Of a stretch of 64,000 bases of DNA, positions 43,183 through 58,757 are shown piece by piece; position 1 is the first letter of the stretch; the number at the start of each line of letters is the position of its first letter. The DNA is from Halostella salina. GTDB lineage: Archaea > Halobacteriota > Halobacteria > Halobacteriales > Natronoarchaeaceae. Under the pieces are notes generated by a model, which was not told the origin of the DNA, made no database searches, and saw nothing but the letters and a program-made list of their open reading frames with translations. A program made the translations under genes and the position numbers. The stretch covers positions 248,001 to 312,000 of the forward strand of contig NZ_RCIH01000004.1 of NCBI RefSeq assembly GCF_003675855.1, given 5' to 3'.

Positions 43183-43683
43183 TCAGGTGCGCAGCAGCGA
43201 GGTCAGCGCGACGACACCGAGCAGGAGCAGGACCAGCGCCGACAGCGGCTGACCGCCGCCGGACACCCGGTAGAGCCCGTAGCTCACGACCGTGACGACC
43301 ACGCCGACGCCGACGCTACCGGCGGCGTGGGCCAGTTCCGCCCGGCTCGTGTCCGCTTCCCGACCGACCTGCTCGCCGAGACCGATGGCGTTGTCCAGCA
43401 GGTCCCAGGCGACGACCGCCCCGCCGGCGATGACCACGACGACCGCGTCCGGGGCGCTCAGGAACCCGGCGACCATCGCGGCGAGAAACAGGAGGACGCC
43501 GGTCAGCGCCGCCGCCCGCCGCCACCCGGCGAACGTCGTCACGGTCGCGGTGACGATCGCGAGCGCGGCGAAGGGGGTGGCGTACAGCGAGAACAGCCCG
43601 ACAACCGCCGTACAGAGGCTCGCGACGACGACCGCCGCGACCCCGCTGTGAACCGGCGGACGCCGGTCTATCTCCGCCGTCAT
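43183..43683 (-). CDS. DUF7519-like membrane protein
   Basis: A 166-residue membrane protein with about five helices (VAAVVVASLCTAVVGLFSLY, AALAIVTATVTTFAGW, ALTGVLLFLAAMVAGFLSAP, DAVVVVIAGGAVVAWDLLD, SALVLLLLGVVALTSLL). It is last in the operon with the DUF58 gene and overlaps it by four bases (ATGA). I recall this as the DUF7519 family found beside DUF58 in haloarchaea. Function unknown; the helices suggest a membrane platform. Confidence 0.7.
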   Translation of the reverse strand: MTAEIDRRPPVHSGVAAVVVASLCTAVVGLFSLYATPFAALAIVTATVTTFAGWRRAAALTGVLLFLAAMVAGFLSAPDAVVVVIAGGAVVAWDLLDNAIGLGEQVGREADTSRAELAHAAGSVGVGVVVTVVSYGLYRVSGGGQPLSALVLLLLGVVALTSLLRT

Positions 43684-45053
43684 TGTGACCACCGTTTCCC
43701 GGCGCGGGCGAGCGCCGCCTCGGTGCTCATATCAGCGGGCAGTTCGGCCACTCTGATGCCGGCCTCCCGGAGGCCGGTGATCCGGGCGGCGCGCTCGGCT
43801 CCAAACAGCCGGTTGCCCGCCGTCTCCGTCGACGACGGGTCGGGGCTGAGGACCGTGACGAGGTGGCCGTGGGCGTCGAGCAGGCGAGCCAGCCGGACCA
43901 CCTGGTCGTCGGCGAGCGGCGAGAACAGGATCACCTGCGCGTCGTCGGGGAAGCGCTTGCGGAGCCGTCGCAACCGGACCGAGAAGTAGAACGGCTCGTC
44001 GGGCACCTCGGGCGAGAGCGCGTCGTTCGAGGTGAACAGGTCCTGTGCCCTCGCACGGTGGTCGGTGCCCAGCCCCGGCGGGAGCCACACCTCCGTCGGG
44101 CCGAAGGCGGCGACGCCGACGCGGTTCCCCTCGTCGAGCAGCGCCGGGAACACGGATGTCGCGGCCGTCATCCCACGGTCCACAGCGTGGGGGCTGTCGT
44201 CGTCCGGGCGGACGTACGCCTCCTCACGCACGTCGAGCAGGAGGACGACCGTCGCCGACCGCTCCTTGCGGAACCGGAGCGTCGCCATCTCGCCGGTGCG
44301 GGCGTGGCGGTTCCAGTCGATCCGCGAGAGCGAGTCGCCTTTCCGGTACTCCCGGGTGGAGTGGAACTCGATCCCCTCGCCGCCCTCGTCGGTTTCGACC
44401 CGGCCGGCGTGGCGCGTCGTCAGCGCGCGGAGCGCGACGTCCGACACCGGGTCGAACGACGGCTGACACGAGACCACGTCGTCGGTCGGGATCCGGCTCC
44501 GTCGCTCGACCGCCCCGCTCATTCCCCGCGCGATGGCCAGGAGGTGGTCGAACTCGTGGGTGCCGCGGCTCGCGAGGACGGTGTACTCGAACGACGCCGA
44601 CTCCCCGGGGCGCAGGGCCGTCCCCAGCCGGGGCACGCCGTCGACGACCCCGAGCGTCCCCGGAACGCCGTCCACGATCCGGAGGCTTGGGAGCGTCGAC
44701 GACCCGGCGTTCGTGACGGTCACCGAGACGGTCACCTCGTCGCCGGGGTCCGGGTCGCGGTCGGCGATCCGTCGCGTCACGTCGAGCGACACCGCCGGCG
44801 CGCTGCCGGCCCTGGCGTAGGCTGCGTAAGCGACGCCGACGACGGCGGCGAGCAACAGCGACGGGCGTGAGAGGACGATCCCGAAACCGCCGGCAACGAA
44901 GGCGATTGCGCTGACGCCACGCCAGCGACGTGTCGGCATGGTGTCGGTCTCGACGGACCTGGTCTCCGTCCCCGCTGTCGTCTCGCTCTCCGACTCGTCG
45001 TCGCTCGCCACGGTCGCGTCCCCGTCGGCGGCACGGCTCGCGGCTGCCGTCAT
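43680..45053 (-). CDS. DUF58 (von Willebrand-like) membrane protein
   Basis: A 457-residue protein. After a variable acidic N-terminus it has two transmembrane helices (VSAIAFVAGGFGIVLSRPSL and LLLAAVVGVAYAAY, about 45-80), an Ig-like domain (VTVSVTVTNAGSSTLPSLRI) and the DUF58 core (GIEFHSTREYRKGDSLSRID, then WNRHARTGEM, VVLLLDVREEAY). The metal-site pattern DxSxS is replaced by VREEAY after LLLD. It overlaps both neighbours by four bases and is the likely client of MoxR. Confidence 0.85.
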   Translation of the reverse strand: MTAAASRAADGDATVASDDESESETTAGTETRSVETDTMPTRRWRGVSAIAFVAGGFGIVLSRPSLLLAAVVGVAYAAYARAGSAPAVSLDVTRRIADRDPDPGDEVTVSVTVTNAGSSTLPSLRIVDGVPGTLGVVDGVPRLGTALRPGESASFEYTVLASRGTHEFDHLLAIARGMSGAVERRSRIPTDDVVSCQPSFDPVSDVALRALTTRHAGRVETDEGGEGIEFHSTREYRKGDSLSRIDWNRHARTGEMATLRFRKERSATVVLLLDVREEAYVRPDDDSPHAVDRGMTAATSVFPALLDEGNRVGVAAFGPTEVWLPPGLGTDHRARAQDLFTSNDALSPEVPDEPFYFSVRLRRLRKRFPDDAQVILFSPLADDQVVRLARLLDAHGHLVTVLSPDPSSTETAGNRLFGAERAARITGLREAGIRVAELPADMSTEAALARAGKRWSQ

Positions 45054-45616
45054 TCCGCGTCCACCCCCTGGAGGTCGGCGATCGCGTGTGCGGCCCGCCG
45101 GGCGCGTCTGTCGAACGCCGGTTCCATGGAGAGCGTATCCCTGATCTTCGACCACACCGTTGCACTCTCCGGGTCCCCGTCGGAGAACAGCGCGGCGGCG
45201 ACCGGGTCGTCGGTCCACGTTCCCGCTTCGAGCGCATCGTGTGCGGCCGCCTCCGAACAGTCCTCGGCGTAGGTGATCGCGTCGATGGCCGCCTCCTCCA
45301 GCCGGGTCGCGACCCGGTGTCTCCGGGCGGCCCAGTGTTTGCCCCGCCGGGCGGTTATCGCCTCGTCGAAGTCGTCGCCCGGCGTCGGCAGTGGCTGTTG
45401 TGTCTCCGGGTCCGGCGTCTCGAACTCCCGAACCGACGTTCGCCGGCGGGCCCTCACGACGCGGTACCCCTGCAACAGCGCCAGGATCCCGATGACTGTC
45501 ACCAGGCTCTGGGTCGCGTCGATCCCCGCCGCGACCGCCGGGACGAACATCGCGAGGAAGCCGGCGACGGCCGCGAGTATCCCGACCGCCCCCACGATCT
45601 GGCGGAGGCGGCTCAT
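45050..45616 (-). CDS. DUF7269-like membrane protein
   Basis: A 188-residue protein with two N-terminal helices (IVGAVGILAAVAGFLAMFVP, LVTVIGILALLQGYRVV) and a cytoplasmic helical domain (AITARRGKHWAARRHRVATR, AIDAITYAEDCSEAAAHDAL). The pattern matches the haloarchaeal DUF7269 family that accompanies DUF58. It lies between the DUF4129 and DUF58 genes with ATGA overlaps on both sides. Confidence 0.7.
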   Translation of the reverse strand: MSRLRQIVGAVGILAAVAGFLAMFVPAVAAGIDATQSLVTVIGILALLQGYRVVRARRRTSVREFETPDPETQQPLPTPGDDFDEAITARRGKHWAARRHRVATRLEEAAIDAITYAEDCSEAAAHDALEAGTWTDDPVAAALFSDGDPESATVWSKIRDTLSMEPAFDRRARRAAHAIADLQGVDAE

Positions 45617-46599
45617 GGCGCACCTCCGTCGGCGTCGTCAGCGTCCGCGTACTCGTCCTCGATCCGCCTGAGCGCGGCGACGGCCCGTCGCTCGCGGTCC
45701 TCGGTCGGTGTCGCGCCGCCGTACCGGACCTCCTCGAACAGCCGCGTCAGTTCGCCGACCTCGCCCTCTGACATCCCGGCGTCGACGGCCGCGTCGGCGA
45801 ACTCCGACGGCGTGCTCGACTCGGGCCGGTCGACGTCCAGATGCTCGGTCATCTCGCGCCAGGCGCGGTACACCTCGTTTTCCACGTCGACGTCGTCCTC
45901 GATCCGGTCGGCCGCCCGGCCGGCGGCCCGGCCGATCGCCTGCCGCTGCTCGGCCGGCGTCTCGGCCTCGTCGTCCGGATCCTCCTCGTCGTCCCCCGTA
46001 TCGCTGTACAGGTACAGGCCGACGACGGCGACCGCCGCGACGCCGAGCACGAGCATGACGAGGGCGGTCGGCAAGGTCGGGTCGGTCATGCTGCCGCCGC
46101 CGCTACCCAGCGGCCCACTCGACCCGTTCCCCTCACCTGGCCCCGACCCCGACGTGATGTTCATCGGGGTGGCGTTCCCTCCCTGAAAATCGATCCCACA
46201 GCCGGCCGTGAGCAGGAGCACGAGTATCAGTAGCGGAAGCCCGGCCGCGAACGTCATCCCGAACGCGGTCAGCCCGCCGTATCGGGTGTAGAAGAACACG
46301 GCGATGGCGGCCAGGATCGCGGCCAAAGCCAGATACGGTCCCGGGCCCGAGAAGAGCTGAATACAGGGAGGGATCGGTACCCCGCCAGTGGTGTTGGGCT
46401 GCTGGCTTTCGTCACCGAGGCCGCCTCCCTGGGAGGGGTTATCGGTCGGCATCGGATTGATACCGCCACCTCCCCCGCCGGTGTCGACGGGAGAGGTGAG
46501 CGTGGACGCCGCCAGCGTGATGGCGAGCACGCAGACGATGCCGATCAGGACAGGGCGGAGGGCATCTCTATCCACAGGCGGTCTTGCATCATTGCTCAC
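45613..46599 (-). CDS. DUF4129 domain membrane protein
   Basis: A 328-residue protein with an N-terminal helix (PVLIGIVCVLAITLAASTLT), a low-complexity Gly/Pro/Ser region, further helices (YLALAAILAAIAVFFYTRYG, FGMTFAAGLPLLILVLLLT, ALVMLVLGVAAVAVVGLYLY) and a cytoplasmic C-terminal DUF4129 domain (VYRAWREMTEHLDVDRPESS, FADAAVDAGMSEGEVGELTR). In other organisms this domain sits behind transglutaminase-like enzymes. The start is GTG 46599; it is first in the four-gene operon. Confidence 0.8.
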   Translation of the reverse strand: MSNDARPPVDRDALRPVLIGIVCVLAITLAASTLTSPVDTGGGGGGINPMPTDNPSQGGGLGDESQQPNTTGGVPIPPCIQLFSGPGPYLALAAILAAIAVFFYTRYGGLTAFGMTFAAGLPLLILVLLLTAGCGIDFQGGNATPMNITSGSGPGEGNGSSGPLGSGGGSMTDPTLPTALVMLVLGVAAVAVVGLYLYSDTGDDEEDPDDEAETPAEQRQAIGRAAGRAADRIEDDVDVENEVYRAWREMTEHLDVDRPESSTPSEFADAAVDAGMSEGEVGELTRLFEEVRYGGATPTEDRERRAVAALRRIEDEYADADDADGGAP

Positions 46600-46679: not shown

Positions 46680-46904
46680 CTATGCCAGTTCGGTCAGCGC
46701 GAGCAGGATCGACGGCGCGACCAGCAACACGACGCCGACGACCAGCAGCACCGCTGGCAGGACGAGCAGTCCCGAGTCCGTCAGGAGCCACAGCCCCAGG
46801 CCGGCCAGGACTGCGAGCACCCCGAGAAGCCGGAGGATCCAGGCGATCGCTTGTTCAAGCCCCGAGTCGACGACCAGTTCGACGACTTCGAGTGCTTCGT
46901 CCAT
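46680..46904 (-). CDS. Small two-helix membrane protein
   Basis: A 74-residue protein with an amphipathic N-terminal helix (MDEALEVVELVVDSGLEQAI) and two transmembrane helices (AWILRLLGVLAVLAGLGLWLL and VLPAVLLVVGVVLLVAPSIL). On the minus strand CATATACGG near 46930-46938 is about 30 bases before the ATG, so it is transcribed on its own. Function unknown. Confidence 0.65.
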   Translation of the reverse strand: MDEALEVVELVVDSGLEQAIAWILRLLGVLAVLAGLGLWLLTDSGLLVLPAVLLVVGVVLLVAPSILLALTELA

Positions 46905-47039: not shown

Positions 47040-47046
47040 TTAAATA
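47040..47046 (+). promoter_or_regulatory. TATA box of the pilus operon
   Basis: ttaaata is centred 27 bases before the GTG at 47070. Together with the AT-rich region 46985-47040 this supports a leaderless start at 47070. Confidence 0.65.
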
Positions 47047-47069: not shown

Positions 47070-49343
47070 GTGTCCGACTCACCCACGCTCGAACTGGCGA
47101 CGGAGGCCGAACGGACCCGCGACGGGGCCGGCGGCGCGGTGCCGCCGCCGCTCCCGCCGGACGACCCGGAAGCGTGGTACGCACCCGACGTGCAGGCCCA
47201 GTACGAACTCCGCCCGGACGTGGTTGCGACGGTCCGGGAGGCGGACGACGCGTTCGCGTACGACGTGCGCGAACCGCGCCTCTCGGCCGCGGACTGGCAC
47301 GCCGTCCGGTCGGTCGTCGACCACTTCGAGAGCGCCACGCTCCGCCGGCCGCTCACCCGGGAGGGAACCGCCGAGCGCATGCGGGAGGGGTTCGCGCCGA
47401 AGTACCGGCGCGCCATCGACCGGCTGACCGACGGCACCGCGGCCGCCCGCCGCCGGGTCGGGTACGTCGCCCTCCGGGACGTGCGCTGTCTCGGCGACCT
47501 GACGCCGCTGGCGCTCGACGACGACATCGAGGTGGCCGACACCGCAGGCGACCGACTGGTCGTCCACACGGCCGACTACGCGCCGGCCGAGACCGACCTA
47601 CCCGCGGACCCCGAGTTCATCGAGCGCTTCGTCAGCGAGCGCGTCGACACGTACACCGTCCCGTTCCGAGGGTTCGAGATACCCGTCGTCCTCTACCGCG
47701 AGCACCTGCTCGGCAACGACGCGTTCACGACGAAGTACGCCGTCGTCGAACCGGACCTCCTGCCGGGCGACGAGGCGCTGGTCGAGGAGTGCAAGGAGCG
47801 CGTCTGGGAGGCGAACGTCGGCGAAGTGATCGACGGTGCCCCGGCGGGGGACGGGGATGCCCGCGAGGCGTTCATCCGTAACCGGGCGTCGAAGTACCTC
47901 TCGCGGCAGCTCACGGCCCGGAACACCCGGGCGTGGCTCGACGCCGCCACGTACCGCACGAAGGCGGCCCTCGCGGAGTACGGCGTCGGCGTCCCGCCGG
48001 TCGACGACCGCTACGCCGAAGACCGGCTGTCGGACCTGGTGTACTACGTCCTGCGGGACTTCGTGGGGCAGGGCAAGCTGACGGTGCCCGTCCGCGACCC
48101 CAACCTGGAGGACATCGAGGCCAACCGCGTCGGCGAGCGCGTCAAGGTGGTTCCGCGCAGCGGCGTCGACGACGGGAGCCGGGTCCCGACGAACCTCGTC
48201 TTCGAGGACGAGCGGGAGTTCGTCAACGTCGTCACGCAGCTGGCGGCCGCGGACGGCACCGAACTCAACGCCAGCAACCCCAGCGCGAAGGTGAACCTGC
48301 GCCCCGCCGGCGTCGACGACGACGTGACGATCCGATGTGCCGTCGCGCTGCCGGTGATCAGCGAGGACGGCCCGCACGTCTCGATCCGCAAGCAAGCGCC
48401 CGACGCGATGACGCCGGTCGACCTCGTGGAGCGCGATAGCCTCCCGACGGAACTGGTGGCGCTGCTGTGGATGCTGTACGAGCACCACTGCGTCGTGCTG
48501 TTCTCCGGTCCGACGGGCGTCGGCAAGACGACGCTGATGAACGCGCACATGCCGTTCATTCCCTTCGAGGACCGCCCGATCAGCATCGACGAGGGGTCCC
48601 GGGAGGTTCGCCTCCCCCACGAGACCGGCGTCTCGCTGACGACGCGTGACCACGAGGACGAGTTCAAGCAGGTGTCGATGGCCGACCTGATGACCGAGTG
48701 CAACTACCTCAACCCCGACGTGGAGGTGATCGCGGAGATCAACACGCCCGAGAGCTTCGAGACGTTCGCGGAGACGCTGAACACCGGCCACGGGGTCATC
48801 GGGACGACCCACGCCGAGGACGTGGAAAAGCTGGTCAACCGCGTCGTCGAGCAGGGGCTGCCGCCGTACCTGCTGACCGAGATCGACCTCGTCGTGTTCC
48901 CGAAACACGTCGGGGGCGAGCGCTACGCCGGGCAGGTCGTCGAGTTCCTGAGCGAGGAGGCGTTCGAGCGCCTCGACGGCGGCGAGGGCCGCGGGACGAT
49001 AGCGAAGGGCGACACGACGGTCTGCTGGAACACGGTCGCCGAGCGCGAGAGCGACGGGTCGTTCAGCGTCGACTACGCCCACCCGGATATGCCCGGGACC
49101 GACGCGACGGCGAAACACAACGGCGTCCGCGTGTTCCACCGGCTGGCGGCCCGGACCGACCGACCGGTCGAGGCCGTCGAGGCGGAGTTCCACCGCAAAC
49201 ACGGCTACGTCCAGTACCTCGTCGACGAGGGCGTCCGCGACTTCGACGCCCTCTTCGACTTCCTCGCGGACCTGGAGTCCAACGAGGCGGCGACCGTCGA
49301 ACGGGCGACGAGCGAGCGCGGCCCCGTCGGTGGCGAGGGATGA
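47070..49343 (+). CDS. Type II/IV secretion system ATPase (TadA/GspE-like pilus ATPase)
   Basis: A 757-residue motor ATPase. The N-terminal half is the family-specific region; Walker A is SGPTGVGKTTLMNAH (about 479-493), the Asp box and Walker B appear in SIDEGSREVRLP and EVIAEINTPESFETFAETL, and the His box in TGHGVIGTTHAEDVEKLV. It powers assembly of type IV pilus-like filaments. The GTG at 47070 is supported by the TATA box 27 bases upstream and excludes the upstream extension. It is first in a seven-gene operon with four- to eight-base overlaps throughout. Confidence 0.93.
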   Translation: MSDSPTLELATEAERTRDGAGGAVPPPLPPDDPEAWYAPDVQAQYELRPDVVATVREADDAFAYDVREPRLSAADWHAVRSVVDHFESATLRRPLTREGTAERMREGFAPKYRRAIDRLTDGTAAARRRVGYVALRDVRCLGDLTPLALDDDIEVADTAGDRLVVHTADYAPAETDLPADPEFIERFVSERVDTYTVPFRGFEIPVVLYREHLLGNDAFTTKYAVVEPDLLPGDEALVEECKERVWEANVGEVIDGAPAGDGDAREAFIRNRASKYLSRQLTARNTRAWLDAATYRTKAALAEYGVGVPPVDDRYAEDRLSDLVYYVLRDFVGQGKLTVPVRDPNLEDIEANRVGERVKVVPRSGVDDGSRVPTNLVFEDEREFVNVVTQLAAADGTELNASNPSAKVNLRPAGVDDDVTIRCAVALPVISEDGPHVSIRKQAPDAMTPVDLVERDSLPTELVALLWMLYEHHCVVLFSGPTGVGKTTLMNAHMPFIPFEDRPISIDEGSREVRLPHETGVSLTTRDHEDEFKQVSMADLMTECNYLNPDVEVIAEINTPESFETFAETLNTGHGVIGTTHAEDVEKLVNRVVEQGLPPYLLTEIDLVVFPKHVGGERYAGQVVEFLSEEAFERLDGGEGRGTIAKGDTTVCWNTVAERESDGSFSVDYAHPDMPGTDATAKHNGVRVFHRLAARTDRPVEAVEAEFHRKHGYVQYLVDEGVRDFDALFDFLADLESNEAATVERATSERGPVGGEG

Positions 49344-51253
49344 CCGGGACGGAGCCCTCCGCACGGACGGACGTGTCGCTCCGGGGCGCGGCGCGGCCCA
49401 CCGCGGCGGTCGACCGCCTGCTGTACGCCCTGTTCTCCAGACACGCCGACGGGGCGCGCCACGCTGGTGACCGCAAGCAGTACCGCGGGACGGACATGCG
49501 GGTGAGCTTCGGCGTGTACGTCGCCCGGGTGTACGGGCTCTCGTGGTTCGTGTTCCTCGTGCTCGCAGCCCTCGGCTTCGCCGGCCTGCTTGCAGTCCCG
49601 GTCGGGACGATGTCGACGGCCGTCGCCTTCGTTCACGACGGCGTCCCGGTGCTGAATCGGGTCGCGGTCGGGCCGGTGCCCCGCGTCGCCCTCGCCGCGG
49701 CCGGCGGCGTGTTCGTCGGCGGGGTCGGGAAACGCGCCACGGTCGCGCTCGGCGGCCGGTATCTCGGCTGGCTCGCCCGCTCCCGGCGGTCGAACATCGG
49801 CCGGACCCTCCCCGGCGCGGTCCGGTACCTCCACGCCCTCTCGACCGGGAGCGACAGCCCGCGGGCGATGCTCCGAAAGGTGGCGGACAACCGGAGCGCG
49901 TACGGCGACACGGCCGTCGCGTGCCGGAAGGCGCTGAACAAGGCGGCGCTCACCGGGAGCCTGAGCGAGGGGCTCCGGATCGTCGCCCGCGACACGCCCT
50001 CGCGGGACACGCTGGCCCCGTTCCTGCTGAAGTTCCGCGAACACGCCGACCAGGGGGCCGAGGAGCTGACCTCCTACCTGCGGCTGGAGAGCCGGATGCT
50101 CTCCCACCGCCAGCAGCGCGCCCGCGAGCAGGCCGAGGGGTTTCTGGAACTGCTCGCTGAGCTGTTCATCGTCCTGCTCGTCCTCCCGTCGCTGCTCGTC
50201 ATCGTCCTCACCGTGATGAGCGTCCTCTCCCCCGAACTGAGCGACCCCGTGCAGACGCCGGTCGGGGAGACGACCGTCCGCGGGCTGCTGGTGTACGTGA
50301 GCGCGGGGTTCGTCCTCGCCACCGGCGCGATCGCAGCCTGGCTGGTGGGCGCGCTCAGGCCGCCCGGCCAGTCGCTCCCGGGGTATCGCCGTCCCGAGGG
50401 CGTGCTGGCGACGCTGCGCTCCGCATCGACCAACCCCGCGAGCGCGACGGTCGTTCTGGGACCGGTCGCGCTCGCCGTCGCCGGACTGCTCCGGACCGTG
50501 TCGTACGACCCGGTCAACGTCGCGCTGCTTGGTTACGCCGCGTTCGCGGTCCCGGTCGGGCTGGTCGCCGTGCGCCGGGCCCGGATCGACGACGCGAAGG
50601 ACAGGGAGATCAAGGACTTCGTCCACGCGGTGTCGAGCCACGTCAGCCTCGGACGCCCGTTCTCGGAGGCCGTCGCGGTCGTCGCCCGGGACGTGGACCT
50701 CGGGGCGCTCGACGAGGACGTGGCCGACCTGGCGTTCAACGCCAACCTCACCACGTACGAGGGCGACCTCCGGACGGCGGCGCTGGACCGGTTCGTCGAC
50801 CGCGTCGGGACGCCGCTGGCCGAGCAGACGATGGGGCTCGTCACCGGCGCGCTGGAGGCCGGCAGCGACGCGGAGGACGTGTTCGACACGCTCCAGACCG
50901 AGGTCGGGCGGCTCTACCACGAGAAGAAGGCGCTCCGGAACGCGATGCTCGTCTACGTCGCGGTCGGCTGGACGACGGCGCTGCTCATCGTCGGCATCGT
51001 CGTCGCGGTCGACGGCTACGTCATCGACGGGTTCGCACAGCTCTCGTCGGTGTCCGGCGTCTCGACGTTCGACCCGGACGCCATCCAGCCGGCCCGTGAG
51101 CGCCGCCGCTTCTACGTCGTCACGCAGGCGACGATGCTGGCCAGCGGCTGGTTCGCCGGCATGGCAAGTCGCGGCCGCTACGACGCTCTGCTGCACTCCG
51201 GCCTGCTCGTGCTGGTCGCGTACTTCGTGTTCGCGGGGGTGGGGATGACGTGA
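49340..51253 (+). CDS. TadC/GspF-like pilus membrane platform protein
   Basis: A 637-residue membrane protein with two related GspF-type modules. Each has a helical cytoplasmic domain (GAVRYLHALSTGSDSPRAML, and HAVSSHVSLGRPFSEAVAVV) followed by transmembrane helices (VLLVLPSLLVIVLTVMSVLS; FVLATGAIAAWLVGALR; AMLVYVAVGWTTALLIVGIV). It forms the inner-membrane base on which the ATPase acts. Its ATG overlaps the ATPase stop, and its stop overlaps the first pilin start (GTGA). Confidence 0.9.
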   Translation: MTGTEPSARTDVSLRGAARPTAAVDRLLYALFSRHADGARHAGDRKQYRGTDMRVSFGVYVARVYGLSWFVFLVLAALGFAGLLAVPVGTMSTAVAFVHDGVPVLNRVAVGPVPRVALAAAGGVFVGGVGKRATVALGGRYLGWLARSRRSNIGRTLPGAVRYLHALSTGSDSPRAMLRKVADNRSAYGDTAVACRKALNKAALTGSLSEGLRIVARDTPSRDTLAPFLLKFREHADQGAEELTSYLRLESRMLSHRQQRAREQAEGFLELLAELFIVLLVLPSLLVIVLTVMSVLSPELSDPVQTPVGETTVRGLLVYVSAGFVLATGAIAAWLVGALRPPGQSLPGYRRPEGVLATLRSASTNPASATVVLGPVALAVAGLLRTVSYDPVNVALLGYAAFAVPVGLVAVRRARIDDAKDREIKDFVHAVSSHVSLGRPFSEAVAVVARDVDLGALDEDVADLAFNANLTTYEGDLRTAALDRFVDRVGTPLAEQTMGLVTGALEAGSDAEDVFDTLQTEVGRLYHEKKALRNAMLVYVAVGWTTALLIVGIVVAVDGYVIDGFAQLSSVSGVSTFDPDAIQPARERRRFYVVTQATMLASGWFAGMASRGRYDALLHSGLLVLVAYFVFAGVGMT

Positions 51254-52008
51254 CCCGCCGGCGTGTTACCTCGGACTCCCGGACCGGCCGCGCCCAGTCG
51301 AACGTCGTCGGCGTCGCCGTCCTGCTGGGTATCACGGTGATCGCGCTTGGCGCGCTGACTGCGAGCATCGGCGCGGTCGTCCAGAGCAACGCGGCGACGG
51401 CCGACGCCGACCGCGTCGCCGCCGGGTTCGAGGAGGCGATCAGACCGGTCGAGGCGACCGGCCACCACCGCGGCCGGGTCGCCGTCTCCAGCGGCACGTT
51501 CTCGACGGCCGACCGCGACCTCCGGGTGCTGAACGCGTCGGGCGTCGTGGCGACGACGACCGTCGACGCGCTGGTGTACGAGTCCGGCGACCGGACGGTC
51601 CGGACCCTCTCGGGGGCTATCATCCGCGGCGACGACGGCGGCTCCCGGATGTACCGACCGCCGCCGATTACTGCGAGCCGACGGGCTGGCGGCGTCCTCG
51701 TCGTCGGTGCGGGCCGGCTGAACGCCTCGGCAGGGTCAGTCGGGGGCAACGGCGAGACGGAACTCGTCCTCCGGTCGAACGTCACGCATCACCGGCGGAG
51801 CCTCGGGAACGGCACGTACCGCGTCGCCGTCGAGACCGAGACGCCGGCCGCGTGGCGGTCGTACTTCGAGCGCCTGAACGCCACCGTCGTCTCAGAAGAC
51901 CGTGACTTCGACGGCGACGGCGTGGGGAGCGTCGTCGCCCGGTTCCCGGGCGACCGGACGGCGTACCTCGTCGTCCACGACCTGCGACTGGAGGTGGCGC
52001 ATGGCTGA
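51250..52008 (+). CDS. Pilin-like protein 1 (DUF7289-like)
   Basis: A 252-residue secreted filament-type protein. A short basic leader ends in GRA, then QSNVVGVAVLLGITVIALGA, which fits PibD prepilin peptidase processing after Ala. The outer domain is beta-rich and holds repeated VLVVGAGRLNASAGS-type and Asn-rich strands with several N-x-S/T sequons (NAS, NVT, NGT, NAT). The start is GTG in an overlap with the preceding stop. It is the longest of five pilin-like proteins in the operon. Confidence 0.8.
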   Translation: MTRRRVTSDSRTGRAQSNVVGVAVLLGITVIALGALTASIGAVVQSNAATADADRVAAGFEEAIRPVEATGHHRGRVAVSSGTFSTADRDLRVLNASGVVATTTVDALVYESGDRTVRTLSGAIIRGDDGGSRMYRPPPITASRRAGGVLVVGAGRLNASAGSVGGNGETELVLRSNVTHHRRSLGNGTYRVAVETETPAAWRSYFERLNATVVSEDRDFDGDGVGSVVARFPGDRTAYLVVHDLRLEVAHG

Positions 52009-52489
52009 CCGCGGCCCTCGAACGACCCATCGCCGCGGTCGCCCGAGCGACCGCGCCCTGACCCCGGTCGTTGGCAAGGCCCTGGAGATAGCGATCGTCG
52101 TCCTCTACGTCGCGCTGCTGACGGCGTCGCTGTACGGCAACGCTGTCCCCGAGTACCGGAGCGAAGCGGGCGCGGAGGTCGGCAACCGGACGCTGGCGAC
52201 GGCGGCCCACGGCGTGCAGCAGGCGGTGCCGGCCAGCCCGACGGTCGGGACGGCGCGAACGCGCGTCGATCTGCCCGAGCGGATCCGCGGCGCGACGTAC
52301 CGCATCCGTGCCGACGGCGAGATGCTGGTGCTCGACCACCCGGACGCCGCCGTCGGCGGCCGGGCCCGGCTCGTGCTTCCCGACTCGGTGGTGTCGGTGT
52401 CGGGAACGTGGCACAGCGACGGCGAGACGGCGGTCGTTGTCGAGCGCGTCGACGGCGGCTTCGCGGTCACGCTGGAGGGCGACTCATGA
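52001..52489 (+). CDS. Pilin-like protein 2 (DUF7266-like)
   Basis: A 162-residue protein with a 20-residue basic leader ending in DRA, followed by LTPVVGKALEIAIVVLYVAL, again a PibD-type site. The external part is small and beta-rich (TYRIRADGEMLVLDHPDA, ARLVLPDSVVSVSGTW). It overlaps the preceding gene by eight bases. I recall this type as DUF7266. Confidence 0.75.
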   Translation: MADRGPRTTHRRGRPSDRALTPVVGKALEIAIVVLYVALLTASLYGNAVPEYRSEAGAEVGNRTLATAAHGVQQAVPASPTVGTARTRVDLPERIRGATYRIRADGEMLVLDHPDAAVGGRARLVLPDSVVSVSGTWHSDGETAVVVERVDGGFAVTLEGDS

Positions 52490-53166
52490 GCCGCGCACAG
52501 GCGAACATGCCCGCGCTGCTGGTCGCCCTGATCGCGCTCTCGACGGTCGCCGGCGTCGGGCTGTTCGTCGCGGACGACGCGGTCGGGAGCGCGACGCGGG
52601 ACGCCGGCGAGCGCCGCGTCGCAGTCGGTCTCTCCGACCGCCTCGTGAGCGCCGACGGGCCGCTGGCGGTCCGCGCGAACGTGCTCGACGCCCGGGCGGT
52701 CGCGTCGCTCACGCCCGCGGCGTTCGAGTCGCAGTACCCCGTCGCGCGGGACCACGCCGTCCGCGTGACGCTCGACGGCGAACCGCTCGTCAGCACTGGC
52801 GACGCCGACGGCGGAACGACGATCCGGCGGGTCGTGCTCGTCGAGCGACGCGAGCGTGTGACCCGCACGCCGGCGCTCGGCGCGAACCGCGAACAGTCGG
52901 TGACGCTCCCGCGGCGGACGCCGAACGCGACGGTCGAACTGTCGCCGCCGAACGGCACGACCGTCACCACGGTCCGGGCGAACGGCCGCGTCGTGCTGCA
53001 CGACGACGCCGGCGTCGAGGGCACCGCGACCGTCGACCTGTCGCGGTTCGAGACGGCGACGCTGACGTTCGCGTCCAGCGACCGGCTCCCCGACGGGAGC
53101 GTGACCGTGACGTACTACCCCTCGCGGACCCGGAAGGCCCTCCTGGGGGTGACCGTCGATGGATAG
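52486..53166 (+). CDS. Pilin-like protein 3 (DUF7263-like)
   Basis: A 226-residue protein. The leader is only MSRA, followed by QANMPALLVALIALSTVAGV, so the cleavage site lies very close to the start, as in class III signal peptides with short leaders. The outer domain carries beta strands (TVELSPPNGTTVTTVRANGR, TVDLSRFETATLTFASSD). Its ATG overlaps the previous stop by four bases. I recall this type as DUF7263. Confidence 0.75.
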   Translation: MSRAQANMPALLVALIALSTVAGVGLFVADDAVGSATRDAGERRVAVGLSDRLVSADGPLAVRANVLDARAVASLTPAAFESQYPVARDHAVRVTLDGEPLVSTGDADGGTTIRRVVLVERRERVTRTPALGANREQSVTLPRRTPNATVELSPPNGTTVTTVRANGRVVLHDDAGVEGTATVDLSRFETATLTFASSDRLPDGSVTVTYYPSRTRKALLGVTVDG

Positions 53167-53566
53167 CAGGGCACAGCTGTCGCTGCCGGCCATCGAGGTC
53201 GGCGTCGGCGTCGTGCTGGTCGTCGGCGTCCTGACGACGTTCGCGCTCGGCGTCCCGGACGCCGACACCCGGGAGCCACAGCTGGACGCCTACGCCGAGG
53301 ACGCCGCGACGGTGCTGGCGGGCGAGTCGCCGCGACACGGCGGGGCGACTCGGCTCGCGGAGGTGGTTCGGACGCCCGAGCGCTTCGAGCGCGAGCGCGA
53401 CGCGCTGGAGCGCCGCGTCGACCGGATCCTGCCGGACAACCTGCTGTTTCGGGTCGAGACGCCACAGGGTGCGGTCGGCTACGAACGGCCGGCGGGCGTG
53501 ACCGTCGGCTCGGCGACCGTGACGACCGCCAGCGGCGACGTGACGATACGGGTGTGGTACGCATGA
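53159..53566 (+). CDS. Pilin-like protein 4 (DUF7262-like)
   Basis: A 135-residue protein. The leader MDSRA is followed by QLSLPAIEVGVGVVLVVGVL, a PibD-type site and hydrophobic helix. The mature part has a helical linker (ERERDALERRVDRILPDN) and a short beta domain (VTVGSATVTTASGDVTIRVW). It is the smallest of the five and overlaps its neighbours by eight and four bases. Confidence 0.75.
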   Translation: MDSRAQLSLPAIEVGVGVVLVVGVLTTFALGVPDADTREPQLDAYAEDAATVLAGESPRHGGATRLAEVVRTPERFERERDALERRVDRILPDNLLFRVETPQGAVGYERPAGVTVGSATVTTASGDVTIRVWYA

Positions 53567-54117
53567 GACGGCTCGGCCCCGACCGGAACCGCGGCCAGCT
53601 CGTTCTCGTCGCAGCGGGCGTGCTGGCGCTGGCGCTCGTCCCGATCGCCTTCGCGTACCTCCAGCTCGGCTACCACGCCGACGTTCGGGCGGGCGTCGAG
53701 TACGACGACCCGGGGCGCAACGCCGAGCGCCTGCTCGAACGCGGCGTCCACGACGCGAGCGCCGACGTGCGGGGCGAGTACGAGTGGTGGCAGCGCGAGG
53801 ACGCCGTCGCCGCGGTTCGGACGAACCTCGAACCGCGGCTCGAAACGCTCCGCGCGGCCCGCGTCGACAGCGGAACGGCCTACGAGGTGGCGTACAACGA
53901 CAGCGCCGCCGCGGCGTGGGCCGCCCGGAACTGCCCCAGTGGACCGGACCGACAGTTCGGTGACTGCGAGGCCATCGACGGCGTCGTCGTGCAGGAGCGC
54001 GCCGGCGAGGCGGCGGTGCTGGCGGTGGCGCTCGACGTTCGCGTGACGACGGCGGACGGGCGGTGGCGGGCGACGCCGGTTGTCGAGGCGACCGGGAACG
54101 CGACGGCGACGGCGTGA
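53563..54117 (+). CDS. Pilin-like protein 5 (DUF7261-like)
   Basis: A 184-residue protein, the last of the operon. The leader ends in NRG, followed by QLVLVAAGVLALALVPIAFA. The outer part contains ERGVHDASADVRGEYEWWQR and a cysteine pair (NCPSG, GDCEA), and ends in strands (VVVQERAGEAAVLAVALDVR). The ATG at 53563 lies in an ATGA overlap; a GTG at 53554 is an alternative. Confidence 0.75.
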   Translation: MRRLGPDRNRGQLVLVAAGVLALALVPIAFAYLQLGYHADVRAGVEYDDPGRNAERLLERGVHDASADVRGEYEWWQREDAVAAVRTNLEPRLETLRAARVDSGTAYEVAYNDSAAAAWAARNCPSGPDRQFGDCEAIDGVVVQERAGEAAVLAVALDVRVTTADGRWRATPVVEATGNATATA

Positions 54118-54185: not shown

Positions 54186-54818
54186 ATGGACCGCCTTCGT
54201 ACCCACCCGGCGTTCGCGCTGGTCGGTCTCGGCGTGCTCGCAGCGCTCTCCGGTATCATGCTCGGGGGCGACGTGTTCTTCGGGTACGGCAAGTTCGGCG
54301 AGGCGTACGTGTTTCACGTCGGCGTGTTCGCGTTCGCTTTGGCGGGGGCGATGACGCTCGTTCGTCGCACGTCATTGCAGGCTAGCTATCGGGCCGTAGC
54401 GACGGCTTCCCTCGCGCTCGTCGCGCTGTACCTGTGTGCGGTCGTGTTACTCTGGTACGACGTCATCGTCACGCCGCCGCCGATCTACAGCCCCGACCCC
54501 ACGCTGGCCGGCCTCGCGCTCGACCGAGTCTCGATGGCGCTCGCGCTGACGCCGCTCGCCGCGGGGTACGTGTTCGGAGCCGATTCGGTTACGTCGCCCG
54601 GTTCGAGAGGCGAAACTGTGCCGTCCGTCCTGGTGCTGTTCGTGCTCGGGTCGTTCGCGCTGGCCGCCCGGATCGACAGCAGCGGCGGTGCACATCCCGG
54701 TTTCGTCGGGCTGATCTATCAGATCGTTCTGGTCGTTGGCGTCGTCGCGGCGCTCCCGTTCTACGTCGTCGCCAGCTGGGAGTTCGCCGAGCGCAGTGAC
54801 GGGGCGTCGGCGACATAG
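54186..54818 (+). CDS. Six-helix membrane protein
   Basis: A 210-residue membrane protein with about six helices (FALVGLGVLAALSGIMLG, AYVFHVGVFAFALAGAMTLV, TASLALVALYLCAVVLLW, SMALALTPLAAGYVFGA, VLVLFVLGSFALAARI, LIYQIVLVVGVVAALPFYVV). No function recognised. acatttag near 54156-54163 is a TATA-like element about 28 bases before the ATG, so it is not part of the pilus operon. Confidence 0.7.
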   Translation: MDRLRTHPAFALVGLGVLAALSGIMLGGDVFFGYGKFGEAYVFHVGVFAFALAGAMTLVRRTSLQASYRAVATASLALVALYLCAVVLLWYDVIVTPPPIYSPDPTLAGLALDRVSMALALTPLAAGYVFGADSVTSPGSRGETVPSVLVLFVLGSFALAARIDSSGGAHPGFVGLIYQIVLVVGVVAALPFYVVASWEFAERSDGASAT

Positions 54819-57539: not shown

Positions 57540-58757
57540 GTGGAGTACCGTCGTACCGCCGTTATCAAGCTCGACACCCCCGAAGGTGCAGATACACTCC
57601 TTCGAGAGACAGTCGAGCAATTCAAATACTGCGCCAACACCGCGAGCGAGTGGTGCTGGCACGGCGACGACGGCTACCACGTCACTTCGAAAGCGAAGGC
57701 CGAACGCGCCCTGTACGACCAGCTCCGTGAGGACACGGAGCTAACCGCAAATCTCGTCCAGAAAGGGATTCGCCAAGCCGTCGAATCCGTCAAAAGCGGC
57801 GTCGAGCGGCTCAAAAACGACAAAGAATCATCTCGTCCGACGTTCACGGCGGATACCGCCGTTTACGACAAGCGAAGCGCCACCTTCCACCGTGACCACG
57901 TCTCGCTCTCAACACCGGACGGACGGATCGAGTGCGACTACATTCTGCCTGACGATGCCGAGACACCCCCGACAAAGTACGTCGCCAACGAGGAGTATGA
58001 GTTTCGGCGGGCGACACTCCATCGGCGTGACGGCGACTGGTATCTTCATGCGTCAATGCTCAAAGAGGAGGAGGACGGGGACGACACCGAACCCACCACC
58101 GGGCACAGAACAGTCCTCGGTGTGGACCTCGGTGTAAATCAACTCGCGGTTGCTTCGACCGGGCGGTTCTGGTCGGCAGACGAGTTCAACCACTGGAAAC
58201 GAGAGTACGAAAAGCGACGTGGCGACCTCCAGCAGTGCGGGACACACGCGGCACACGACGCGATAGCAGGTGTCGAGCGGAAGGAGGACGGACGCTTCGA
58301 GATATTCCTGCATCGGGTCGCCAATGAGATCGTGGCTGAAGCCGTCGAACACGATTGTTCGCATATCGTGTTCGAGGATTTGACGGACATTCGTGAGAAC
58401 GTGTCACAGGCGTCGTGGCACCATCTGTGGGCGTTCCGCCGCCTCTACGAGTACGTCGAATACAAAGCCAGAGCGCAGGACGTTGAAGCTGTTCAGGTGG
58501 ACCCACGGAACACGTCAAACCGGTGTTCGACCTGTGGGTTTACCCACGACGACAACCGCCACGGCGAGAACTTCGAGTGTCAGGATTGTGGCTACCAGAA
58601 CCACGCCGACTACAACGCTTCAAAGAACATCGGCTTGCAGTATCTCCGGCGTCGGCAAAACGCAGACGCCGGAGGCGCACCCGTAGACGTGCGCTTGAAT
58701 CGCGGGACACTGAACGTGAGTGGAGAGTACGAGCTTCCCGCCTCATCCAAGGCGTAG
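57540..58757 (+). CDS. tnpB: TnpB (IS200/IS605-type RNA-guided nuclease), stand-alone
   Basis: A 405-residue TnpB. RuvC-type catalytic residues are present: Asp196 in GVDLGVNQ, Glu279 in FEDLTD and Asp357 in HADYNASKNIG. The zinc ribbon CSTCG...CQDCG (about 332-354) is complete. TnpB proteins cut DNA guided by a structured RNA from the 3' end of their own gene. No TnpA transposase is near, so it is of the IS1341 type. Codon use is less GC-rich than its neighbours. The GTG start at 57540 lacks a nearer ATG. Confidence 0.93.
   Translation: MEYRRTAVIKLDTPEGADTLLRETVEQFKYCANTASEWCWHGDDGYHVTSKAKAERALYDQLREDTELTANLVQKGIRQAVESVKSGVERLKNDKESSRPTFTADTAVYDKRSATFHRDHVSLSTPDGRIECDYILPDDAETPPTKYVANEEYEFRRATLHRRDGDWYLHASMLKEEEDGDDTEPTTGHRTVLGVDLGVNQLAVASTGRFWSADEFNHWKREYEKRRGDLQQCGTHAAHDAIAGVERKEDGRFEIFLHRVANEIVAEAVEHDCSHIVFEDLTDIRENVSQASWHHLWAFRRLYEYVEYKARAQDVEAVQVDPRNTSNRCSTCGFTHDDNRHGENFECQDCGYQNHADYNASKNIGLQYLRRRQNADAGGAPVDVRLNRGTLNVSGEYELPASSKA

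Follow-up and report, generated by a model that had tools for sequence, protein, structure and literature searches.

The seven genes at positions 47070-54117 of the window, i.e. the whole stretch of 64,000 nucleotides of Halostella salina DNA that was analysed, belong to an already known class of haloarchaeal type IV pili and do not represent a new system. They probably constitute an operon dedicated to the assembly of a type IV pilus, of the class known in haloarchaea as PilB1-C1, pil-2 or subclade 4C, and the predicted product is most likely an adhesion pilus. The preliminary description of this DNA had considered the product of the operon as not known. This view has to be revised, since the Haloferax volcanii ortholog, pilB1-C1, is needed for full adhesion (PMC6491452) and the class has been described (PMC4858521).

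Organization of the operon

Direct reading of the sequence shows seven genes on the forward strand, with successive overlaps of 4, 4, 8, 4, 8 and 4 bases (Table 1). This agrees with the preliminary description, which had reported seven overlapping genes with junctions of four or eight bases and had interpreted their products as a pilus motor and five pilin-like proteins. The latter interpretation is supported by the Pfam domains of PilB and PilC and by the presence of class III cleavage sites in all five small proteins. Pfam assigns each of these small proteins to an uncharacterized family (DUF7289, DUF7266, DUF7263, DUF7262 and DUF7261).

Table 1. Features of the pilus operon in the window (^, predicted cleavage position)
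Feature	Position	Strand	Characteristics
TATA-box-like promoter element ttaaata	47040..47046	+	~27 bases 5' of pilB start codon
pilB, assembly ATPase	47070..49343	+	GTG start; 757 aa; PF00437 T2SSE, E=4e-23
pilC, membrane platform	49340..51253	+	637 aa; PF00482 T2SSF, E=2e-14
DUF7289 (PF23960) pilin-like protein	51250..52008	+	GTG start; site RA^QSNVVG
DUF7266 (PF23928) pilin-like protein	52001..52489	+	site RA^LTPVVG; candidate major pilin
DUF7263 (PF23924) pilin-like protein	52486..53166	+	site RA^QANMPA
DUF7262 (PF23923) pilin-like protein	53159..53566	+	site RA^QLSLPA; invariant Glu at +8
DUF7261 (PF23922) pilin-like protein	53563..54117	+	site RG^QLVLVA; invariant cysteine pair C124/C135

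Elements resembling ttaaat are found at similar distances 5' of pilB in Halostella, Haloferax, Halobacterium and other relatives, and the position of the TATA-like element suggests that the pilB transcript may be leaderless or almost so. The next gene starts at position 54186, after a short gap that carries its own TATA-like sequence; hence, the operon probably ends at 54117. The motor genes and the five pilin-like genes are likely to form a single transcription unit.

The operon is adjoined by a divergent cluster on the reverse strand (43680-46599) that codes for DUF4129, DUF7269 and DUF58-like proteins. Genes for relatives of the DUF4129 and DUF7269 proteins also lie close to this operon in about 18 further loci, from several genera. 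Between the two divergent clusters, an ORF on the reverse strand (46683-46904) codes for a predicted membrane protein of 74 residues, which matches no Pfam family and lacks a relative in the other loci examined. Finally, the ORF at 57540-58757 resembles, as judged by eye only, an IS200/IS605-type TnpB, with zinc-ribbon CxxC motifs near the C-terminus.

Conservation among haloarchaea

Orthologous loci of haloarchaeal genomes were pooled with 80 named loci, and removal of duplicates yielded 104 distinct loci; the named loci had been found via PilC and are therefore not an unbiased set with respect to the presence of the operon. The seven-gene order is intact in 98 of these 104 loci, and the PilB protein of the window is 61-71% identical to its orthologs over the aligned part.

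The Haloferax orthologs match published primers corresponding to the start of HVO_0620 and the end of HVO_0619 (PMC6491452) at homologous positions. Thus, the locus of Hfx. prahovense (L077) matches these two primers with 0 and 1 mismatches, respectively, and the pilC1/hvo_0618 junction primer with 2. Exact strings derived from the Hfx. volcanii primers, partly joined by ourselves, had no match in 392 haloarchaeal genomes, in the Haloferax genus or in the named genome collection. Because the Haloferax orthologs carry the HVO_0620 and HVO_0619 primer sequences, we identify the operon by sequence, through these relatives, as the pilB1-C1 operon of another genus, orthologous to HVO_0620-0619-0618 and the following genes of Hfx. 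volcanii.

In one large family (f4, probably Natrialbaceae), every genome gave at best weak DUF7261 matches, and the name Natrialbaceae appears in none of the 80 named loci; from this sample, the PilB1 operon seems to be absent from this family. pilB1C1 and its associated genes are present in one strain of Hfx. gibbonsii and absent from another (PMC7921747). In two loci (L042 and L043), foreign DNA is flanked by truncated copies of pilB and of pilC, for which reason an intein was rejected as the cause of the apparent gap in PilB, and in three others (L101, L102 and L107), 3-5 kb of other genes lie between pilB and pilC. Broken copies of pil-2 have been reported in Halobacterium salinarum, with an in-frame stop in pilC2 in strain R1 and an interrupted pilB2 in NRC-1 (PMC4292770). 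Together, these cases seem to reflect repeated decay of the system.

Predicted processing and folds of the small proteins

All five small proteins harbour a class III site, R-[A/G]^[Q/L], followed by a hydrophobic helix, and the genome has one gene for a PibD-like peptidase. Among the 104 distinct loci, Arg is found at position -2 in 94/103 DUF7289, 98/98 DUF7266, 102/104 DUF7263, 98/100 DUF7262 and 102/102 DUF7261 proteins, and, with few exceptions, position -1 is occupied by Ala or Gly in each family. Since both positions are near-invariant, the five sites did not arise by chance; a PibD-like motif (RA or RG, then Q or L and a hydrophobic helix) had already been noted in the preliminary description. 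The +1 residue in these loci is Gln in four families and mostly Val, Leu or Met in DUF7266.

Charged residues inside the N-terminal helix are conserved only in DUF7266 (K+7 and E+10) and DUF7262 (E+8). The comparison with Glu5 of bacterial pilins suggests that these residues may contribute to the docking of subunits.

The Pilin_N family weakly matches the DUF7289 protein (E=0.002) and the DUF7266 protein, and none of the five small proteins passes its Pfam cut-off. In the structural model of the DUF7266 protein (pLDDT 88.9), seven strands come after a long N-terminal helix, a predicted layout as expected for an archaeal pilin. Foldseek searches of the PDB detected no solved structure significantly related to DUF7266 or to the globular domain of DUF7261, and profile searches of PDB sequences gave chance-level matches only, that of DUF7266 being a Natrinema pilin (E=0.23). 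Two candidate relationships were discarded: the weak Pfam matches of two DUF7263 members to GspH (E about 0.05) were judged chance-level, and DUF7261 has no match to bacterial TadE even at E values up to 5.

Conserved gene overlaps

We determined the lengths of the overlaps in the 104 distinct loci using the start codon nearest to a 4-base overlap, a rule that biases the counts of 4 upward and leaves those of 8 unaffected. Overlaps of 4 bases are found at the pilC/DUF7289 (93/103), DUF7266/DUF7263 (85/103) and DUF7262/DUF7261 (88/103) junctions, and overlaps of 8 or 4 bases at the DUF7289/DUF7266 junction (97/103). The most striking case is that of DUF7263/DUF7262, with 8 bases in 95/104 loci. 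The pilB/pilC junction is more variable than the others, with 4 or 8 bases in 54/98 loci, and all six junctions have one of these two values in just 36/98 loci.

Outside the operon in the same genome, overlaps of 0-14 bases are found at ~1/5 of 48 same-strand neighbours, as determined with a crude gene caller. The packing of the operon is thus denser than the local background, yet it is of a common type, and a second pilus operon of the PilB4 type in this genome also has some 4-base overlaps. The conservation of the overlaps across loci makes translational coupling plausible, and the stop/start overlaps are predicted probably to couple the translation of these genes. However, the overlaps alone do not demonstrate a stoichiometry mechanism.

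A related operon in the same genome

The PilB4-type operon (L037:5888-15138) codes for PilB, PilC and, according to Pfam, DUF7287, DUF7288, DUF7261, DUF7266 and DUF7289 proteins. Like the operon of the window, it thus comprises pilB, pilC and five pilin-like genes, with the DUF7289, DUF7266 and DUF7261 families common to both. In contrast, its gene order is rearranged, it has DUF7287 and DUF7288 where the window operon has DUF7262 and DUF7263, and its PilB is much longer, 1309 residues. The latter protein has a long C-terminal tail that is acidic and repetitive.

Profile comparisons paired the shared families with their namesakes (DUF7289, E=2e-24; DUF7266, E=8e-12; DUF7261, E=7e-10). The match between DUF7262 and DUF7287 is weaker (88% probability), and DUF7263 lacks a clear counterpart in the PilB4-type operon. 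As three of the five families recur, the two operons appear from their sequences to contain a duplicated pilin set, in agreement with published work that proposes duplication and diversification of such sets.

The same genome has gene clusters for PilA-type proteins (PF07790) at G000:C7:257483-258447 and G000:C4:367172-367776, whose products are candidate shaft subunits in trans.

Proposed function and alternative explanations

In our model of an adhesion pilus, PibD would remove short leaders after R-[A/G] and expose the hydrophobic N-terminal helices, as judged from the conserved site. By analogy with other members of these protein families, PilB would then use ATP on the PilC platform to stack the helices into a surface filament, and the conserved overlaps of stop and start codons would couple the translation of the genes. 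The filament is proposed to help attachment on the basis of the Hfx. volcanii ortholog, not of Halostella itself: transposon insertion in pilB1 or deletion of pilB1-C1 causes a partial surface adhesion defect (PMC6491452). The effect of this loss may be partly indirect. In Hfx. volcanii, detection of the PilB1 and PilB4 proteins was restricted to cells grown in GMM (PMC7305310).

Our best candidate for the major pilin is the DUF7266 protein, a prediction to which we give about an even chance, and the other four small proteins are predicted to be minor pilins. Of the five, DUF7266 seems to fit best the description of arCOG06296, the PilA-related pilin that Makarova et al. proposed as the major one. 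Against a dedicated pilus, the overlapping genes suggest similar levels of expression, in poor agreement with a single major pilin of high abundance, and the failure of DUF7266 and DUF7261 to match a solved structure significantly also counts against it.

Since genes coupled in this way would be expected to yield their products in comparable amounts, a tip complex or a pseudopilus on a PilA shaft is conceivable. In the first case, the five proteins would be minor pilins that make up a tip or initiation complex on a shaft of PilA-type pilins encoded elsewhere. We consider this rather unlikely. The six PilA-type (PF07790) genes elsewhere in the genome, the near-equal protein amounts suggested by coupling and the failure of all five proteins to reach the Pilin_N cut-off are in its favour, as is the rescue in trans of the Hfx. 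volcanii adhesion defect not only by pilB1-C1 but also by pilB3-C3, which codes for the PilA motor (PMC6491452). However, pilB1-C1 does not rescue a pilB3-C3 mutant (PMC6491452), and the PilB4-type operon has its own DUF7266 and DUF7289 members, one of which was judged PilA-related and major by Makarova et al. (PMC4858521). It is also doubtful that the five proteins form a fixed, approximately equimolar complex (a tip, an initiation complex or a short pseudopilus) devoid of its own major pilin, with a ratio set by coupled translation and a set duplicated as a unit for two motors.

A secretion pseudopilus, i.e. a short, periplasm-spanning piston that exports proteins with no surface filament, is improbable. 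A PilB/PilC-type motor and five pilin-like proteins are also parts of bacterial type II secretion systems, and the weak GspH matches of DUF7263 point in the same direction, but the host archaea have no outer membrane, no secretin gene was seen adjoining the operon, no substrate gene is linked to it, and the Hfx. volcanii mutants show an adhesion phenotype. A minor-pilin tip complex or a secretion pseudopilus had been suggested in the preliminary description; both are retained as rivals, and neither is our leading reading.

Lastly, that the operon represents a further PilB3-C3 or PilB4-C4 system is hardly conceivable despite the three pilin families that it has in common with the PilB4-type operon, as the sequence comparisons already contradict it: the window PilB shares only ~30% identity with the PilB3- and PilB4-type ATPases that this genome also encodes and has no PilB3_N or PilB3_C domain according to Pfam, whereas the PilB3-type ATPase has both, and gene order and primer match tie the operon to HVO_0620.

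DUF7261, DUF7262, DUF7263, DUF7266 and DUF7289, so far families of 'unknown function', become candidate pilins for which the partner motor is defined. Testable questions are which subunit forms the filament and whether subunit ratios in an archaeal pilus are fixed by conserved stop/start overlaps. Hfx. volcanii, which carries the orthologous motor, is a genetically tractable relative.

Comparison with known pilus systems

PilB3-C3, which assembles PilA1-6 in Hfx. volcanii and can stand in for PilB1-C1 in adhesion (PMC6491452), has a homologous motor and platform, but its operon contains no pilins. The resemblance with pilB1-C1 of Hfx. volcanii is much closer: both operons have the order pilB, pilC and a gene for a predicted pilin, which shares a four-base overlap with pilC, and the Haloferax relatives have all seven genes in the order of the window. 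They differ in that the operon is from another genus, with PilC proteins about 60% identical, as determined with the Haloferax relatives.

By its layout, the operon very probably also corresponds to pil-2 of Hbt. salinarum (OE1347R to OE1332R), described as seven co-transcribed ORFs spanning 6.9 kb and restricted to haloarchaea (PMC4292770). The published layout of pil-2, pilB2-pilC2 followed by predicted prepilins, is similar, and the Halobacterium loci that we examined (L139) show the seven-gene order. Finally, Makarova et al. (2016) described the haloarchaea-specific subclade 4C, with three pilins that also occur in the PilB4 system, a pilin of arCOG02911 and the PilA-related arCOG06296 pilin proposed as the major one (PMC4858521). 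Through its orthology to HVO_0620, on which this placement rests, the operon very probably belongs to subclade 4C.
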